Positions 2 to 6,805 of a DNA stretch of 6,808 nucleotides are shown here, piece by piece. The notes under the pieces are model-generated. The model was given only the letters and a program-made list of their open reading frames with translations, was not told the origin of the DNA and ran no database searches. Numbering within the stretch: the first letter of the stretch is position 1; every line of letters starts with the position of its first letter. A program made the position numbers and the translations under genes. This DNA comes from a bacterium (GTDB lineage Bacteria > ARS69): positions 1 through 6,808 of the forward strand of contig JALGZR010000165.1 in NCBI GenBank assembly GCA_025774805.1. The letters run 5' to 3'.

Positions 2-361
2 GTGCCCAGACCCCCGGCTCTCCAGCCGGAGATGGCGGGCCTGGTCAACGAGTGGCGCAACCGGACGGTCGAGACGCTCGGCCAGGTCGCACCCGACGAC
101 CCGAAGACGGACGCGCTCATGGCGACGGTCGACGCGCTGGCCGATTGGGCGGTGCTGGCGCCCGAGAACGATCCGATGCTGCCGCAGTTCGTGGCGGTCC
201 TCCAGAGCCCCGAGATGCTCCAGACCATGGCCCAGCGCCCCTTCGAGGTCGTGGAGGAGCTGGCGGCCATGGTCTCTGCCGGCGAGAGCTTCGAGAGCCT
301 GGTGGAGCGTCTGACGCTGCGCTTCCAGCCCGAGCTCGCCCAGCAGGTCGCGGACCAGGAG
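2..361 (+). other. N-terminal helical region of the polyvalent protein, unassigned
   Basis: Residues 1-120 are rich in Ala, Leu, Glu and Met and read as several amphipathic helices, with no signal peptide or membrane segment. I do not recognise a family. The codons end almost only in G or C, like the C-terminal half. The region may be an N-terminal remnant of a longer protein if the gene begins upstream, or a leader needed for packaging or assembly; neither is shown by the sequence. Confidence 0.5.
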
Positions 362-3300
362 CGCGCGGAGGCGGAGGCGCCGGAGCCGGCCGAACCAGGA
401 GAAACTCCGGAGCCACTTGGGGAACTTGAGGCCCGCGTGCGGGCCATGATCGGCGATGAGGCACTCGCCGGCATCCGTCAGGAGAATCGAACAGATGAGG
501 CGTACCGGGCTGTCCTGGTTGAGCTGGAGCAGAAGCTCGCCGAGATCGAAGCCCCGCTCTCAGTTGAAGTTCCCGAGGGCAATGAGTTTGAAGTCTTCCA
601 CGGGCGGGGCAGAGGCGAGAAGGCTGAGGTTTACGCCGAGGGTGTTGAGGGGCCGATCCTTGGTCCTGGGAAGTACTACGCATTCTCCGAGCGTGAGGCG
701 CAGGCCTACGGTCCAGAGGTCACACGGGAGACCGTCACGGTTGAAAACCCGCTCAGAATCACGAGCGACCAGGAGTTGCTGAAGATCGTCGGGCGCGACC
801 TAGACATCCTGTCGATCGAGGGCCAGGGCGAGGCAGGCCGCCAACTGCGGGCCTACGCCGAGAAGCACGGGCACGACGCCATCGTCATCGAGGCTCCATG
901 GGGCCGCGATATGAACGCTGCGGGAGAGTCGCACAAGAGGATCCGGTCGATGTTCGGTGGGAGCCAGCTTGTCGTGCTCCGGGAGGCCGGCGAAGAGGAG
1001 GCGCCCACACTTCAGCAGCGGCTAGAGGAGTACCGGGAAGCCACGGCCAAGATGACCCGCAAGGAGCTGGAGAAGGAAGCGAAGTCGCTGGGACTCGGCG
1101 GGCTGTCCAAGCACACGAAGAACACGCTGCGCGAGCTGGTCATCCGCACGGCGGAGATCCGGGCGAGGCAGGTTGAGGAGGCCCGCGAGAAGGCGGAGAA
1201 GGCCCCTGCGCTCCTTGACGCGCTCGACAAGCTCTCCGACGAGGAGATCCTGGCGAAGGGCCTAAAGTATCTCAGGGACACCTTTGACGACATCGACGCC
1301 TTCTCTGGCGAGGAGGAGGCCTTCGACGAGGACCTAGGCCGGCGGATGCTCGCGATGCGCGACCGGCTCGACCGCCTCGAAGAGAAGGCCGAAGGCGTCG
1401 GCGAGGAGCCCCCAAAGGACGTACCAAAGGAGCCAGAGAAAGGCGCAGCTAAGGTACGGGAGGAGGAGATCCTCAAGGAGGCCAGCGTCAAGAAGCTGGG
1501 CTACAGCGTTCTACCTTGGCGAATCGTCACATCCGAGGGCAAGGAGTTGTCGAGCCCGTCCGGGGAACCCCTGGGTTGGAGGTTGAAGAGGGAGGCGACA
1601 GCAGCCCTTGAGCGCATGCGGGCCGGAGACCGAAGTGACATCGAGGAGGCTGAGGAACGCCACGCGGCGGCTGTGGCCCGCAGCAAGGAGATCCACGAGC
1701 CGAAGTACAAGAAGGCGGAGGCGCCCCCGGAGATCCCCGCGTTCGAGCCGACCGAGCCGCTTCCTGGCAGCCAGGAGTTCCGGAAGCTCGAGCAGCGGCG
1801 CGAGCAGCTGAGTACCGAGATTTCCGGCTGGCGGGAGAAGCTCGAGAAGAAGAAGGCCAGCCTCCGGCGGAGCAGGAAGCCGCAGACCCTTGCGGATCTC
1901 CGGCGGAACATCGCGGCCATCGAGAAGCAGATGGAGCCGCTCGAGAAGGAACAGGCCAAGATCCGCGAGCGGATCTCCAAGGCCTACACGGAGCAACGCG
2001 CGACAGACGAGCACCCCATCAACCGGATTCGGGCGCTCGTCGAGCTCGGCCGGATGTCCTTCGAGGACGCGATCAAGGTCTCCGAGGGGTGGCTCCGCGA
2101 GCACCTGGCCGGGGAAGGTCTCTCGCCCCAGGACGCCGCGATCTTCGCCTCGAAGCTCGCGCAACCACTGGTCTCTCTCACCGGGACCACGGACGAAGAT
2201 CAGATCGCACGATGGGTCAAGAGCACCGCCCTGGAACTCGCAGCCCGTGAGATCACGGAACCGCTGCATGCAGTCCCGCGCGAACTCTTCAAGACGCCGG
2301 AAGTCGGCGGGAAAGTCGACAAGATCAAGGCCCTTAGCCGACGCGACGACCTATCGCTCGGCGAGTTGCTCGACCAGGCGATCGCCCTCGGGGAGGAGAT
2401 CAACGCGTACCTCGCCAAGGAGCGGAGGCTCGTCAAGGCCGAGGAGAAGCGCCAAGAGGAGCTGGAGGCCAGCGCCGCCAAGCGGGCGCGTGAGCTGGAA
2501 GAGGAGATCGCGAAGGGCGGGCACCTTATCACGTCCGCGTCACGGACCCTCCGTGATGCCCTAGTCCGCTTGGTCGAACAGCGCGACGCGCGCTACCTGG
2601 AGGAGTGGCAGGCCGAGGGCGGCTTTGCTCCCATGCTGTCGAAGCCCCAGGAGAAGGCCATGGTCAAGGCCGGCTACCTGAAGGCCGGCGAGAGGGGCCT
2701 CGCGCTGACGCCCGAGGGGCTGGAGGCCTCGAAGAAGATCCGCGAGGTCCTCGACCTGCTCCAGCACGAGTCGATCGAGTTCCGGCAGCCGGTCAAGCCC
2801 AAGGGGCTCGCAGACCCGGCCAAGGTCCGTTCCGACGTCGAGATCGGGGGCAAGCTCGAGAAGGTCGCCAACGCCTTCACGGCCCGGGAGGCGACCCGCT
2901 ACGCGATGAACGCCCCGTACTGGGCCGAGGGGGAGGTCGTCGGCACGGACGGGCGGACGCTCATCGTCATCCCCACCAAGCACTCCCGCGACCCGGGCGT
3001 CTACGTCGCCGGCACCGGGGAGAAGATCGAGGCTGTCTACCCGGACTACCGCGCGGTCCTCCACCACACCAACCAGATCGGTGTGCTCACGTCCGCCGCG
3101 ATCTACGAGGCCGGCGTCCGGCCGCCTGACCTCAAGCCCGAGGAGAAGACCTCCCTGGTGAAGATCGGGGACAACTTCTTCGACGCGGGCCTGATCGAGC
3201 GGGCAGGCCGCGCCCTGCTGGACCTGGGGATCCAGGCTGTCCATGCCTACCAGAAGGACTCGAACTCGCCGCTCGAGCTCTACGAGGCCGGCGCCACGAA

Positions 3301-6300
3301 ATCGGTCAAGATCGCGGTCATGGGCCTGACGCCCGGCGCGGGCGCTGGGTTGCTGTATTCGACGCTCCCGATTTCCGAGACAGTCCCGAAGAAGGCCCGC
3401 CGGAAGAAGAAGAAGGCGCCGGAGGGCATGCCGGGCGAGGCTCCCCCTGGCGGCCCAGGGGCCATCGGGACGCCCTCGATCTTCCGTGGGCTCCCCGCCG
3501 GCGAGAGGAAGGCCCCGGGCAGGGTCACGAAGGACGACATCTGGGAGCGGCTGACGGAGCTCTCAGGGGCCACGATCCGGCAGGGCCGCGCCCGGTTCAA
3601 GGCCGGCACGGTCGGCTGGTACCGCGACTGGAACCACGTCATCCGCATGAGGGAGTCCCGGCCGCTGGCGGTCATGGCCCACGAGAAGCTCCTCGGCAAG
3701 GAGCGCGCGACGGGGGCCGACCTGCCTCCGGCCGTGCGCTCGGAGCTGAGCGATCTCGGGTTCACCCTCTACGGCGACGAGGAGCCCGCCAACGGCTACG
3801 TGGCCGAGGGCTTCGCGGAGTTCGTGGCCCGCTACCTGATGGCGTCCTGGTGGAACGGCGAGGACATGGCGACCGTCACGCCGGCCACCTACCGCTGGTT
3901 CTTCGATACCGTGCTGGCCGGGCACCCGACCGAGGCCGGCTTCCATCAGGTGAGGGGGATGTACGACCTCTTCTACCTCCAGGGGTCGCTGGGGCGTGTC
4001 GACGCCTCCATCGCCTGGGACGACGAGACGGCCTCGCTGGCGCGGTTCCTCGGGGCCCTGCGCAACGCCGGCCACCGGCTCCGGAAGGCGGGCGAGGACG
4101 ACCTCCAGGACTGGATGATGGTCGACCGCGCGCGCGCCGAGCAGCTGGGGCGCTCGCTCGAGTTCCACGAGTCCCTCCACGCCCAGGCCCTCAGCCTCCA
4201 GGCCACGGCCGAGTCCATCGCCAAGAGCTTCCTGCTCGATCACACCGTCAACCTGAAGGGCGAGATCACCGGGAAGTCCCTCAAGGAGGCCCTGAAGCCG
4301 ATCGGGGACCGGGAGCGCGAGTGGTGGGTCTTCATGAAGGCCCTGCGCGACCTCACGCTCGTCCAGACCGTGCAGAACGACCGGGCCGAGTACGCCGAGA
4401 GGATCGCCGAGAGCAACGAGCGCGAGCGGCAGATGGCCGCCACGGATCCGGACTACGAGGCCAAGATCATCCGCGAACCGACGGATGAGGAGCTCGTCCG
4501 GAAGTTCCCGGAGATTGATACCGGCATCAGCCACGGCGACGCCCGCTGGGTCGTGGAGCAGCTCGACAACGCGACCTTCCGCGAGGCGGCGATCGAGTAC
4601 ACGGCCTTCATGGACCGGGTGCTCGACTTCCTCGTGGACTCCGGCGTCATGACGATGCGGGCCAAGGAGCGCCTCCGGGAGCGCCACCCGATCTACCTGC
4701 CCCTCAACCGGGTCTTCGACGACGCGGAGCGCGTCTGGGTCCGGAAGGCCCGCAAGCGGGGCGGCCTGGGCGGACGGCCGATCAAGAAGATTTCCGGCTC
4801 GACGCGGCTCAGCCGCGACCCCCTGACCCTCACGATCCAGCAGGTCCACAACTCGCTGAATGCCGCCCAGAAGGCGCGATTCGCCCGGGAGATCGTCAAG
4901 GTCGCCGAGAAGGAGGACATGGGCTGGCTGGCCGAGAAGGTCACGAAGCCGATGCGCCTCATCGAGGCCCGGCTCTCGGCCTTCAAGGAGCAGCTGGAGG
5001 CGGCCGGGCTCGAGATGGACGGGACGGACCTGGACTACGTGCTCAGCCTTTGGACGAACACGCATTCCGAGTTCGCGGGCCGCCCGATCGTGGCGATCGT
5101 CCGCAGGGGGGAAACCGAGTACTGGGAGATCAAGGACCCGGACCTCTACACGACCCTGATGGAGCTCGACAAGAACGTCAGCGCCGTCGGCATTCGGCTC
5201 CTGGCGGTTCCCGGAACGCTCGTCCGGATGGGCGCCGTCCAGCTCTCGCTGCCGTTCGCGATCAAGAACGCCCTGATGCGCGACCCGGCGCTGGCCCCCG
5301 TGTTCTCGAGCACCTTCTTCCCGGGAGTCGGGGGCTTCTACGAGGCGCTGGTCTCCGCTCTGGCGGACGCCAGGAACGCGCCCGTCGTCAAGGGGATCAT
5401 CGACCGGATCCCGGCGAAGCTCCGGAAGTTCGGCGCCAAGGTCGGCAAGCGAGCCGAAACGGCCGCTCAGATGAGGGCCGCCGGCGGGGAGTTCGTCACC
5501 TTCGCCCAGCAGGTCCGCGTCGGCACCACGCGGGTCTGGCGGGAGCGGCTCTCCCCCGTGAGCCACAAGGAGCGGCTCCTCGAGATCGGCCGGAACCCGC
5601 TCCTGGCCGTGGCCCGCCTGCCCGGCGTCCTCTGGAAGGGCGTGGCGATCATGCAGGAAGCCATCGGGCGCACCGAGCTCTGGGTCCGCAACCCGGAGTT
5701 CGAGGCCCGCCTGGCGGAGGGCAAGGAGAAGTACGGCGACACGGAGATGGCCGTCCGGTACGCCCTCTACCACGCCAAGGACGTGATGAACAACTACTCC
5801 AGGGCCGGCGTCATTGCCCGGTCGCTGGGGCCGATGTACCCCTTCTTCACCGCCCGGATCGCCGGCGCCAGCAAGGAGCTGAGGGTCTTCGCCCTGTTGC
5901 GAGACATCGGCGGCAAGAGAACGAGGCGCTGGCCGGCGGCGGTCATGCGCGCGATCGCCGGCCTGACGCTGCCGAGCCTGATGCTCTGGTGGCTGTTCAA
6001 GGACGAGGAGTGGTACCAGGAGATCGAGGAGTGGATGCGCCGGGGGTTCTGGGTCTTCTCGTTCGACGGCGGGGAGACCATCTGGAAGATCCCCAAGCCC
6101 TGGACGCTGGCCGAGGTCTTCTCCAACAAGCTCGAGATGCTTCTGCTGGAGCAGGAAGAGAGCCTCCTCGGGGAGGCCGGCGAGATCGCCCGGCAGCTCT
6201 CGCCCGTCTCCAACATCATGGGCACCATTCCGATCCTGCTTCGGCCGGCGGTGGAGGCGGCCACCTACACGCGCGGCTTCGGCTCGGAGTCCTTCTTCTC

Positions 6301-6805
6301 GCCCCGGCGGACGATCAGCCCCTTCGAGCTCCGGAACAAGGAGCCCCAGGACATCGCGCGGCCCTGGACGAGCGGCTTCGCGAAGTGGGTCGCGTCCTGG
6401 CTGCCCGGCGACTGGAGCCCCATCCAGATCGACGCCATGGTCTACGGCTACACGGGAGGCCTCGGAACCCAGCTGCTCCGGGTTCCGGACGTGCTCCTCG
6501 AGAAGGCCGAGGGTGTCCGGAAGGTCCAGCCGGCCGACTGGCCGATCCTGGGGACGTTCGTCAAGAGGGAGAGCCCCACGGCATCGAGGACTGTCCGCGA
6601 GATGTGGGACGACCTGGAGCGGCTGAGGCGCAAGCGTGGCAGCGGGACGCTGACGCCGCTCGAGACCCTCCGGCTGCCGGCGCTCGAGAAGGCCTCGAAA
6701 GCTATCTCGGAGATCCTCGATCGGTGGGAACAGGGGATGTACCCGCGCGAGCTCGCCGCGCAGCTGGTCCTGCTCCAGGCCCGGATGGCCCAGGTTATCA
6801 AGTAG
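2..6805 (+). CDS. Giant multidomain phage/mobile-element polyvalent protein (ART, SAP-like, clamp-like, zincin-like and LPD38-like regions)
   Basis: A 2267-residue protein fills the window and ends at TAG 6803-6805. The domains in order are: helical N-terminus, ADP-ribosyltransferase-like (194-327), SAP/Rho-N-like (351-389), GEPLGW module (499-540), coiled coil (590-665), winged-helix-like (865-915), DnaN-like (945-1112), degenerate zincin (1174-1340) and a long helical C-terminal half with LPD38-type motifs. This string of unrelated effector and DNA-handling domains, with no signal peptide, is characteristic of polyvalent proteins of phages and conjugative elements, which are thought to enter the recipient with the DNA. 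The GTG at base 2 is the first possible start in the window, but only one base precedes it. The true start may lie upstream, and no ribosome-binding site can be judged. An in-frame ATG at 32-34 has GGAG directly abutting it, too close for a normal site. The reading frame is very secure; the exact biological role is not known. Confidence 0.93.
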   Translation: MPRPPALQPEMAGLVNEWRNRTVETLGQVAPDDPKTDALMATVDALADWAVLAPENDPMLPQFVAVLQSPEMLQTMAQRPFEVVEELAAMVSAGESFESLVERLTLRFQPELAQQVADQERAEAEAPEPAEPGETPEPLGELEARVRAMIGDEALAGIRQENRTDEAYRAVLVELEQKLAEIEAPLSVEVPEGNEFEVFHGRGRGEKAEVYAEGVEGPILGPGKYYAFSEREAQAYGPEVTRETVTVENPLRITSDQELLKIVGRDLDILSIEGQGEAGRQLRAYAEKHGHDAIVIEAPWGRDMNAAGESHKRIRSMFGGSQLVVLREAGEEEAPTLQQRLEEYREATAKMTRKELEKEAKSLGLGGLSKHTKNTLRELVIRTAEIRARQVEEAREKAEKAPALLDALDKLSDEEILAKGLKYLRDTFDDIDAFSGEEEAFDEDLGRRMLAMRDRLDRLEEKAEGVGEEPPKDVPKEPEKGAAKVREEEILKEASVKKLGYSVLPWRIVTSEGKELSSPSGEPLGWRLKREATAALERMRAGDRSDIEEAEERHAAAVARSKEIHEPKYKKAEAPPEIPAFEPTEPLPGSQEFRKLEQRREQLSTEISGWREKLEKKKASLRRSRKPQTLADLRRNIAAIEKQMEPLEKEQAKIRERISKAYTEQRATDEHPINRIRALVELGRMSFEDAIKVSEGWLREHLAGEGLSPQDAAIFASKLAQPLVSLTGTTDEDQIARWVKSTALELAAREITEPLHAVPRELFKTPEVGGKVDKIKALSRRDDLSLGELLDQAIALGEEINAYLAKERRLVKAEEKRQEELEASAAKRARELEEEIAKGGHLITSASRTLRDALVRLVEQRDARYLEEWQAEGGFAPMLSKPQEKAMVKAGYLKAGERGLALTPEGLEASKKIREVLDLLQHESIEFRQPVKPKGLADPAKVRSDVEIGGKLEKVANAFTAREATRYAMNAPYWAEGEVVGTDGRTLIVIPTKHSRDPGVYVAGTGEKIEAVYPDYRAVLHHTNQIGVLTSAAIYEAGVRPPDLKPEEKTSLVKIGDNFFDAGLIERAGRALLDLGIQAVHAYQKDSNSPLELYEAGATKSVKIAVMGLTPGAGAGLLYSTLPISETVPKKARRKKKKAPEGMPGEAPPGGPGAIGTPSIFRGLPAGERKAPGRVTKDDIWERLTELSGATIRQGRARFKAGTVGWYRDWNHVIRMRESRPLAVMAHEKLLGKERATGADLPPAVRSELSDLGFTLYGDEEPANGYVAEGFAEFVARYLMASWWNGEDMATVTPATYRWFFDTVLAGHPTEAGFHQVRGMYDLFYLQGSLGRVDASIAWDDETASLARFLGALRNAGHRLRKAGEDDLQDWMMVDRARAEQLGRSLEFHESLHAQALSLQATAESIAKSFLLDHTVNLKGEITGKSLKEALKPIGDREREWWVFMKALRDLTLVQTVQNDRAEYAERIAESNERERQMAATDPDYEAKIIREPTDEELVRKFPEIDTGISHGDARWVVEQLDNATFREAAIEYTAFMDRVLDFLVDSGVMTMRAKERLRERHPIYLPLNRVFDDAERVWVRKARKRGGLGGRPIKKISGSTRLSRDPLTLTIQQVHNSLNAAQKARFAREIVKVAEKEDMGWLAEKVTKPMRLIEARLSAFKEQLEAAGLEMDGTDLDYVLSLWTNTHSEFAGRPIVAIVRRGETEYWEIKDPDLYTTLMELDKNVSAVGIRLLAVPGTLVRMGAVQLSLPFAIKNALMRDPALAPVFSSTFFPGVGGFYEALVSALADARNAPVVKGIIDRIPAKLRKFGAKVGKRAETAAQMRAAGGEFVTFAQQVRVGTTRVWRERLSPVSHKERLLEIGRNPLLAVARLPGVLWKGVAIMQEAIGRTELWVRNPEFEARLAEGKEKYGDTEMAVRYALYHAKDVMNNYSRAGVIARSLGPMYPFFTARIAGASKELRVFALLRDIGGKRTRRWPAAVMRAIAGLTLPSLMLWWLFKDEEWYQEIEEWMRRGFWVFSFDGGETIWKIPKPWTLAEVFSNKLEMLLLEQEESLLGEAGEIARQLSPVSNIMGTIPILLRPAVEAATYTRGFGSESFFSPRRTISPFELRNKEPQDIARPWTSGFAKWVASWLPGDWSPIQIDAMVYGYTGGLGTQLLRVPDVLLEKAEGVRKVQPADWPILGTFVKRESPTASRTVREMWDDLERLRRKRGSGTLTPLETLRLPALEKASKAISEILDRWEQGMYPRELAAQLVLLQARMAQVIK
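359..424 (+). other. Glu/Pro-rich interdomain linker
   Basis: Residues about 120-141 are dominated by Glu, Ala and Pro, with repeated EP/PE pairs. This is typical of a flexible acidic linker. It separates the N-terminal helices from the helix leading into the ADP-ribosyltransferase-like domain. Confidence 0.6.
581..982 (+). other. ADP-ribosyltransferase-like domain (polyvalent-protein ART type)
   Basis: Residues 194-327 show the order of motifs expected of a short ADP-ribosyltransferase fold. A strand ending VFHGRG carries H200. GPGKYYAF (222-228) carries Y225 and Y226, in the place of the 'G-x-Y-F-(T/A)' tyrosine motif. ENPLRI follows, then GHDAIVI (290-296) and a last strand SQLVVL (321-326). 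This matches the H-Y-E-like arrangement of ARTs in polyvalent proteins, which would transfer ADP-ribose from NAD+ to a target, probably a host protein. The residue on the last strand, where many relatives carry Glu, is Gln322, so catalytic activity is uncertain. Codon use here is less G/C-ending than in most of the gene (30 of 103 codons from residue 160 to 262 end in A or T), which suggests a transferred module. The fold call is fairly secure; activity and target are unknown. Confidence 0.72.
1052..1168 (+). other. SAP/Rho-N-like helix-extended-loop-helix module
   Basis: Residues 351-389 start MTRKELEKEAKSLGL and continue through a Gly/Ser/Lys turn (GGLSKHTKN) into a second helix, LRELVIR. 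Helix, extended loop with a basic patch, then helix is the layout of SAP, HeH and Rho N-terminal domains, which bind nucleic acids. The likely role is tethering the protein to DNA (or RNA). The motif is short, so similarity could be convergent. Confidence 0.55.
1169..1495 (+). other. Charged helical spacer, probably partly coiled coil
   Basis: Residues 390-498 are almost entirely Glu, Lys, Arg, Ala and Leu, with heptad-like spacing of Leu and Met (for example RRMLAMRDRLDRLEEK). A Pro/Lys/Glu stretch (residues about 461-478) breaks the helix. No family is recognised. It links the SAP-like module to the GEPLGW module. Confidence 0.5.
1496..1621 (+). other. Small GEPLGW-containing module, unidentified
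   Basis: Residues 499-540 look like a compact two- or three-strand unit (SVLPWRIVTSEGKEL), followed by a turn PSGEPLGW (519-526) and a helix starting RLKREATAALERM. Trp506, Gly525 and Trp526 give it a well-packed look, and the boundaries on both sides are charged helical linkers. I do not recognise the family. Its shape, strands then a helix with basic residues, could suit nucleic-acid or protein binding, but that is only a guess. The surrounding codons (residues 482-557) show 19 of 76 ending in A or T, against about 4% in the zincin region, so it may have its own history. Confidence 0.45.
1769..1996 (+). other. Coiled-coil segment
   Basis: Residues 590-665 contain long Glu/Lys/Arg/Gln runs with Leu or Ile at heptad-like spacing (FRKLEQRREQLSTEI, then IAAIEKQMEPLEKEQAKI). 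One Lys/Arg/Pro break near residues 645-650 divides two helices, giving a possible antiparallel hairpin. It follows a Pro/Glu-rich linker (residues about 572-588). Such a segment would give reach or oligomerisation. Confidence 0.65.
1997..2593 (+). other. Helical region, unassigned
   Basis: Residues 666-864 are helical by composition. They include INRIRALVELGRMSFEDAI, a Ser/Leu/Thr-rich stretch, and a final highly charged helix (residues about 806-838) of Glu, Lys and Arg. No catalytic motif or known fold is visible. It connects the coiled coil to the winged-helix-like segment. Confidence 0.4.
2594..2746 (+). other. Winged-helix-like segment
   Basis: Residues 865-915 read as helix, helix, then a short hairpin: KPQEKAMVKAGYLKAG followed by GLALTPEGLEASKKI. 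The pattern 'aGyL...gLaLTpeGl' closely resembles the recognition helix, wing and following helix of winged helix-turn-helix proteins, where the wing is often followed by 'LT..G'. It sits directly before the clamp-like domain, so it may form a DNA-binding arm for it. The similarity is short and could also reflect a non-DNA-binding winged helix. Confidence 0.5.
2834..3337 (+). other. DNA sliding clamp (DnaN)-like domain, compact form
   Basis: Residues 945-1112 follow the motif order of bacterial DNA polymerase III beta. RYAMNAPYWAEGEVV leads into TDGRTLIVIP (982-991), like 'ATDGHRLA' in DnaN. VYPDYRAVL (1012-1020) matches the highly conserved 'FPDYRRVLP'. A strand-helix FFDAGLIERAGRALLDLG, the SPLEL strand (1089-1093) and a last strand IAVMGLTP (1104-1111) match the end of DnaN, which has 'SPL...' and '..VMPM'. 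At about 168 residues it is roughly half of the usual 366-370, so it looks like an abridged clamp. A ring, a clamp fragment that binds polymerase partners, or a decoy of the host clamp are all possible. Resemblance is recognised by eye; the family assignment is probable, the function inferred. Confidence 0.65.
3386..3520 (+). other. Basic patch followed by Gly/Pro-rich linker
   Basis: Residues 1129-1138 are PKKARRKKKK. About 30 residues rich in Gly, Pro and Glu follow, up to about 1173. This is a disordered linker between the clamp-like and zincin-like domains. The basic run could contact DNA. Confidence 0.7.
3521..4021 (+). other. Degenerate zincin metallopeptidase-like domain
   Basis: Residues 1174-1340 match the layout of the metallopeptidase domain common in polyvalent proteins. 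An early helix and strands are followed by VMAHEKLLGKE (1224-1234) at the active-site helix. Then comes the conserved motif YVAEGFAEFVARYL (1266-1279), whose glutamates (E1269, E1273) include the expected third metal ligand. A trailing helix ends LQGSLGRV. In active members the first motif is HExxH, usually followed by a short helix before the 'KLL' equivalent. Here H1227 and E1228 are present but the second His is missing and KLL follows at once, so the site looks inactivated by a short in-frame loss. Probable role: formerly protein-cleaving, now structural or scaffold. Confidence 0.6.
4022..5206 (+). other. Helical middle region leading to the LPD38-like part
   Basis: Residues 1341-1735 are mainly helical. 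Recognisable marks are an intact HESLH (1389-1393), RERHPIYLPLNR (1559-1570), a basic Gly-rich turn followed by KKISGSTRLSRDPL (1595-1608), and a strand-rich segment with YWEIKDPDLYTTLMEL. The order 'HPIYLPL', 'GS.R...DP', 'IKDPDLY' is typical of large phage proteins that carry the LPD38-type C-terminus. Enzymatic activity is not indicated. Confidence 0.5.
5207..6151 (+). other. LPD38-like region with one hydrophobic, possibly membrane-inserting segment
   Basis: Residues 1736-2050 carry FAIKNALMRDP (1752-1762, an F-x3-N-x3-RD motif), a helix with YALYHAKDVMNNYS, and MYPFFTARIAGASKE (1945-1959). A hydrophobic run AIAGLTLPSLMLWWLF (1984-1999) follows, then an aromatic WYQEIEEWMRRGFWVF stretch and WKIPKPWTLAEVF (2028-2040). 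The same succession occurs in polyvalent and large phage proteins assigned to LPD38. The hydrophobic and Trp-rich segment could insert in a membrane during delivery of DNA, or pack in the virion. Family assignment is from memory of the motif order and is moderately secure. Confidence 0.6.
6152..6802 (+). other. C-terminal tail of the polyvalent protein
   Basis: Residues 2051-2267 continue from the LPD38-like region. They include a hydrophobic loop with SNIMGTIPILLRPAVEAA, a Pro/Arg-rich turn, WASWLPGDWSPIQID, a Gly/Tyr-rich YGYTGGLG, and a final pair of charged helices starting near TASRTVREMWDDLERL. The closing part, 'LTPLE...LPALEKA', is helical and likely packs as a hairpin. It ends at the TAG three bases before the window end, so nothing can be said of a downstream gene or terminator. 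Confidence 0.5.

Follow-up and report, generated by a model that had tools for sequence, protein, structure and literature searches.

A putative shortened sliding-clamp module within a phage-type LPD38 polyvalent protein

What would a piece of a replication sliding clamp be doing inside a phage-type polyvalent protein? This question is raised by contig JALGZR010000165.1 of the bacterial assembly GCA_025774805.1 (5.1 Mb, 284 contigs), the complete 6808 bases of which constitute the window analyzed here. One open frame of 2267 codons on the forward strand (window 2..6805), the strand of all window features described below, spans the whole contig and encodes a phage-type polyvalent protein. Within it, a clamp-like module comprising amino acid residues (aa) 945-1112 (window 2834..3337) matches profiles of viral clamps and, as a structural model, β clamps. 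A DnaN-like segment had been proposed at exactly this location in an original prediction made from the nucleotide sequence, and the location holds.

The sliding clamp is a hub that, through one peptide pocket, brings together the polymerases, ligase, mismatch repair, and control of replication in bacteria. Comparisons of sequence indicate that aa 945-1112 is very probably homologous to DnaN-type clamps. Homology and mechanism taken jointly, we tentatively prefer, at somewhat less than even confidence, a reading in which a shortened DnaN-type module in a phage LPD38 polyvalent protein would serve as docking site or decoy for clamp partners.

Sequence evidence for descent from DnaN-type clamps

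In the profile comparisons with clamps the query was a single sequence and the target alignments were made from other clamps. With hhalign, aa 930-1115 alone scored 43.3 against an alignment of 75 viral full-length clamps (P = 2.1e-6, probability 89%), the best of 100 shuffled sequences reaching 21.5. Against bacterial DnaN the same segment scored 38.1, compared with 21.6 for the best of 200 shuffles and 13.0 for the reversed sequence. Windows of the same open reading frame (ORF) outside the clamp region did not exceed 18.3 against DnaN, and in clamp-profile scans no window in the rest of the ORF rose above background. Ten polyvalent proteins related through the C-terminal core described below, LPD38 proteins among them, were compared with the viral clamps in successive windows, and none gave a clamp signal (maximum 22.9 vs. 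43.3 for the module). A profile match to clamps, the lack of which had been named beforehand as the outcome that would speak against a clamp, is present.

All four motifs listed in the original prediction occur in the order in which they are found in DnaN. Piecewise shuffle tests confirm two of them, TDG and YPDY, whereas SPLEL and VMGLTP are unconfirmed by sequence. The piece aa 945-1000, containing TDG, scored above every shuffle with four profiles, and the piece aa 1000-1045, containing YPDY, did so with all profiles tried, so that two independently significant segments follow each other in clamp order.

An unrelated α/β domain with chance motif matches would be in line with several results of database searches. 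No Pfam or NCBIfam clamp match was obtained for the module, single-sequence searches of the PDB likewise returned no clamp, and plain HMMER scores are low. Among PHROG families, aa 945-1112 matches only 3007 (E 0.005) and 6615 (E 0.026), both weakly and both DnaN-like, and an E-value of about 0.005 was also reached by other pieces of the same ORF, although none of eight other pieces matched a clamp family. However, profile scores that exceed those of shuffles, of the reversed sequence, of other ORF windows, and of ten related proteins, together with two independent segments in clamp order, render a domain unrelated to clamps very improbable. A tblastn search of 50,697 phage records with E-values up to 10 found matches only in four Staphylococcus phage records, three of which carry the annotation DNA polymerase or DNA polymerase β subunit. 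The prediction of a DnaN-derived module inside a polyvalent protein is supported by profile scores above those of shuffles and by the presence of an LPD38 domain in the same frame.

Anatomy, predicted structure, and putative partner-binding pocket

DnaN proper consists of three domains (PF00712, PF02767, and PF02768), of which the module can be aligned to domains 2 and 3 only, and to each in part. The first half of domain 2 (aa 945-988, window 2834..2965), lying within the piece aa 945-1000 that scored above all shuffles, contains strand 1, helix 1, the motif RYAMN (aa 966-970, window 2897-2911), and the TDG loop, as judged from alignment to viral clamps and Escherichia coli DnaN. TDGRTL (aa 982-987, window 2945..2962) is aligned with TDGHRL at residues 172-177 of E. 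coli DnaN, a loop of the pocket (residue list, PMC11139829), and IPTK (aa 990-993, window 2969..2980) with VPRK at residues 195-198, after which little of the second half of domain 2 is left. YPDYRAV (aa 1013-1019, window 3038..3058), within the piece aa 1000-1045, is the equivalent of the pocket strand FPDYRRV (E. coli 241-247), and the distance from TDG to YPDY is 31 residues in the module vs. about 70 in E. coli. The region of domain-3 helix 1 follows (aa 1028-1050, window 3083..3151), the hhalign alignment extending to aa 1055. The second half of domain 3 is putatively represented by aa 1052-1109 (window 3155..3328), with VKIGDN, a helix, SPLEL, and VMGL; VKIGDN resembles, by eye, IGFN at the start of the domain-3 second half of clamps.

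The module thus agrees with DnaN in the succession of domain-2 first half, IPTK, FPDY equivalent, and domain-3 helix, and shares TDG, PDY, and VM residues with it. In contrast to DnaN, it resides inside a very large protein and lacks domain 1, the greater part of the second half of domain 2, and some of the strands of domain 3; the estimate of about half the length of DnaN is correct. The best explanation is that the module is derived from domains 2 and 3 of a clamp. The placement of its second half is uncertain. An early alignment with 11 other clamps and one hhalign comparison had located the FPDY equivalent near aa 1039-1044 (VRPPDL), a placement that was dropped when larger sets, whichever of the MAFFT modes was used, and hhalign comparisons with full-length clamps pointed to YPDY.

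When 61 viral clamps were added to the alignment, AlphaFold produced a model with a mean predicted local distance difference test (pLDDT) of 70.7 and values of 77-85 across most of the C-terminal strand-helix-three-strand unit, which corresponds to the putative second half of domain 3. When this clamp-aligned model was compared with the PDB by Foldseek, the top 50 matches were all β clamps (best E 7.6e-8). VIA-align, the list of which contains β clamps only and is uninformative about unlisted families, gave Z 15.7 with the pneumococcal clamp (root-mean-square deviation 3.1, 172 residues) and Z 15.3 with residues 127-366 of the E. coli clamp, the model superposing on E. coli residues 126-366. 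This structural match would be in keeping with a clamp fold, and it is the clamp-aligned model only that suggests a clamp-like nature for the part with SPLEL and VMGLTP.

Three elements make up the partner-binding pocket of clamps (PMC11139829): the TDGHRL loop of domain 2, together with R152 and L155, the strand bearing FPDY, and the tail at the C-terminus. Pocket residues retained in the module are, in E. coli numbering, R152, T172, G174, L177, P242, V247, and M362. The segments that the module has kept are those lining the pocket, which plausibly fits a partner-docking or decoy module. If so, the polyvalent protein would accompany the phage DNA into the cell, where the module, as a monomer, would offer a clamp-like peptide pocket. 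This pocket might dock host or phage clamp-binding proteins, i.e., polymerases, ligase, mismatch-repair, or initiation-control proteins, next to the incoming DNA; alternatively, the module might compete with the host clamp for such proteins. The folding of the C-terminal part, the binding of peptides, and its consequence are what we infer, and the pocket may target the usual QLxLF motif, another ligand, or none.

Several points weigh against such a docking or decoy function. The pocket of DnaN proper, with its conserved subsites I and II, is not conserved in the module: subsite I is altered at L155, H175, R176, R246, and V360 and subsite II at P363, M364, and R365 (residue list of PMC11139829). 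H175, R176, and P363 are each retained in 60 of the 61 viral clamps and replaced in the module, and the usual pocket chemistry may have been lost. For the C-terminal piece aa 1040-1115, which contains SPLEL and VMGLTP, 35 of 200 shuffles were equally good. When the module was modeled without relatives, the mean pLDDT was 33, and the clamp-aligned model is supporting, not independent, evidence because the clamp alignment steers AlphaFold. No sequence relative of the module was found in the phage, viral, and genome collections searched. Finally, injection together with DNA is inferred from LPD38 and the gene order of relatives.

The loss of near-invariant pocket residues, the deletion of large pieces, and a conservation seen in no close relative would also be expected for a decayed or repurposed clamp fold, which would descend from a clamp but would have lost clamp-motif binding and serve as a structural spacer or as a contact surface for another partner, perhaps a different part of the same polyvalent protein. 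However, the frame is intact, the guanine-plus-cytosine (GC) content by codon position is that of ordinary coding sequence across the module, and motif residues at the rim of the pocket (TDG, L, PDY, V, and M) are retained across a great distance. We regard decay or repurposing as almost as probable as the docking or decoy module, which we retain tentatively.

Half-length phage clamps and the possible recurrence of the fusion

Shortened clamps are not confined to the window. PHROG 3007, which carries the label 'RusA-like Holliday junction resolvase', consists of half-length DnaN-like clamps, and its profile matches dnaN-sized frames in 50 of 60 and in 276 of 386 genomes as well as in E. coli and other controls; the family is mislabelled as RusA. 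PHROG 6615, labelled 'DNA polymerase', matches dnaN-sized frames in 35 of 60 genomes and, again, in E. coli and other controls. Gp31 of Burkholderia phage BcepC6B (L056:4070-4585), which adjoins DNA polymerase, and gp39 of Escherichia phage rolling, a 170-aa 'DNA polymerase III beta subunit', both comprise DnaN domain 2 and the second half of domain 3. With a profile made from ten half-length clamps, at least 388 relatives were detected in IMG/VR. At the loci fetched from there, the ORFs measure 172-275 aa, the exceptions being a single ORF of 380 aa and a small number of full-length clamps; none of these loci is part of a frame of polyvalent size. Gene neighbors of the half-clamps include DNA polymerase, the polymerase exonuclease subunit, primase, and anti-restriction proteins. 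Half length in itself is not new, as half-length DnaN-like proteins are common as stand-alone proteins in phages, and they may well have been described already in earlier literature. The Sam46 paper, citing its reference 62, names PolIII-β-type clamps as the commonest among phages.

Further half-length clamp loci of PHROG 3007 were noted (L065:2992-3510, L062-L160). In two viral contigs (L108:8006-8875 and L114:8419-8913) the half-length clamp is directly preceded by a gene that matches anti-restriction families. BcepC6B gp31 seems to have been annotated with too late a start (L062:2854-3513): its open frame extends further upstream and supplies the missing N-terminal part of domain 2 (...DIRYYLNG).

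PHROG 3007 half-clamps (170-230 aa) resemble the module in size, in their origin from DnaN domains 2 and 3, in the retention of pocket-lining segments, and in being viral. However, they have retained all of domain 2 and dropped the first half of domain 3, whereas the module has domain-3 helix 1, and their TDG and YPDY equivalents are about 60 or more residues apart, in contrast to the 31 of the module. They are encoded by separate genes, give strong single-sequence matches to DnaN (E down to 1e-16), and, unlike the module, retain DGRFPDWRRV and mostly MPxR. The match of the module to PHROG 3007 (E 0.0052) covers 42 of 190 positions, as compared to an E-value of 7.8e-55 for a true member of the family. 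A view of the module as a co-linear half-clamp of PHROG 3007 type was dropped, as the deletions differ.

Because stand-alone half-length phage clamps exist beside genes for DNA polymerase, polymerase exonuclease, or primase, a shortened clamp may well be able to function, and the module might be a working processivity clamp that forms its own multi-copy ring or a mixed ring with clamp subunits of host or phage. However, a sliding-clamp ring is made up of six clamp domains (PMC9690074), and the module, being without domain 1 and having trimmed domains 2 and 3, offers little more than one domain's worth, tethered within a polypeptide that exceeds 2200 residues. A processivity function seems improbable, and the original suggestion that the module could form its own ring is not upheld.

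Regarding recurrence of the fusion, no relative of the module was encountered by a pattern scan of viral and genome contig collections, a scan that is limited to close relatives. Searches of plasmids by tblastn and of genomes, in sets that overlap, likewise yielded none. Weak genome matches of the segment alone (G133, C171) turned out to be chance matches to a peptidase-like protein and an apparent GlmS. In a library of predicted viral structures, the second-best match to the model was A0A6J7W9M3 (E 1.7e-7; TM 0.67), a 1394-residue model with 18% identity, the highest among the 50 matches listed. This protein from an uncultured Caudovirales phage is annotated as 'Large polyvalent protein-associated domain-containing protein' and is in this respect like the window protein. 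Clamp modules may recur in polyvalent proteins, A0A6J7W9M3 being, on the basis of predicted structures, a strong lead and a probable second example, not proof. It is doubtful whether there is a recurrent class of injected polyvalent proteins with a monomeric clamp-mimic that would bind host replication and repair motifs at DNA entry, either recruiting the proteins concerned to phage DNA or withdrawing them from the host clamp.

The original prediction regarded a clamp module as undescribed for polyvalent proteins, and this agrees with the survey defining these proteins (PMC5512222), the text of which contains none of the terms clamp, DnaN, PCNA, sliding, or processivity. No report of a clamp-polyvalent fusion was encountered in limited searches of the open literature. 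LPD38 and a C-terminal core are common to the window protein and the LPD38 polyvalent proteins (Iyer et al., 2017; PMC5512222), for which the survey text gives no clamp domain. What is new is the fusion of a clamp module to an LPD38 polyvalent protein, that is, a new combination of known parts.

The polyvalent protein and the meaning of a clamp-like module

The LPD38 domain is encoded near the end of the frame (aa 2002-2182, window 6005..6547; Pfam PF18857, E 7.1e-21) and is described as restricted to phage-type polyvalent proteins (PMC5512222; Iyer et al., 2017). It forms part of a C-terminal core common to other phage polyvalent proteins, which extends over about aa 1170-2215 (aa 1500-2215 at window 4499..6646) and shares 20-25% of its residues with very large proteins from phages of Vibrio, Shewanella, Pelagibacter, Escherichia, and Bacillus. 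In phage genomes, the annotated neighbors of these relatives include capsid, tail, stabilization, and internal virion proteins. Because LPD38 is described from phage-type polyvalent proteins only and the core has its relatives in phage genomes among virion genes, the contig is most likely phage or prophage DNA; it carries no gene besides the polyvalent frame. As there is no stop before the first bases of the contig, the 5' end of the frame, and with it the N-terminus of the protein, is probably missing. With LPD38 and the clamp module, disparate domains are united in one very large polypeptide, as is characteristic of polyvalent proteins. A profile of the C-terminal core yielded no stretch sufficiently conserved to scan sequence collections with.

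Other features of the frame are worth recording. In the part encoding aa 1-840 (window 2-2521), third codon positions have a GC content of about 0.77-0.86, vs. 0.90-0.98 beyond (window 2522-6805). This step is reminiscent of a two-block mosaic, in which the clamp module would belong to the second block. By eye, aa 197-303 (window about 590-910; FEVFHGRGRG...GPGKYYAFSEREAQAYG...) have the look of an ADP-ribosyltransferase, with no Pfam hit, and about aa 1200-1283 (window about 3600-3850; AHEKLLG ... EGFAEFVARYL) that of a zincin-type peptidase, the second histidine of which is missing. In one assembly, two different LPD38 polyvalent proteins are encoded on separate contigs (G061:C69 and G061:C572), with frames of 1206 and 1470 aa.

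As a by-product of the analysis, a large family of half-length phage clamps surfaces from under the label of a RusA-like Holliday junction resolvase. If the polyvalent protein does enter with phage DNA and its clamp-like module acts as docking site or decoy, a phage could address the replication hub of its host before any phage gene is expressed, and a mimic of this hub would be added to the domains known from polyvalent proteins.

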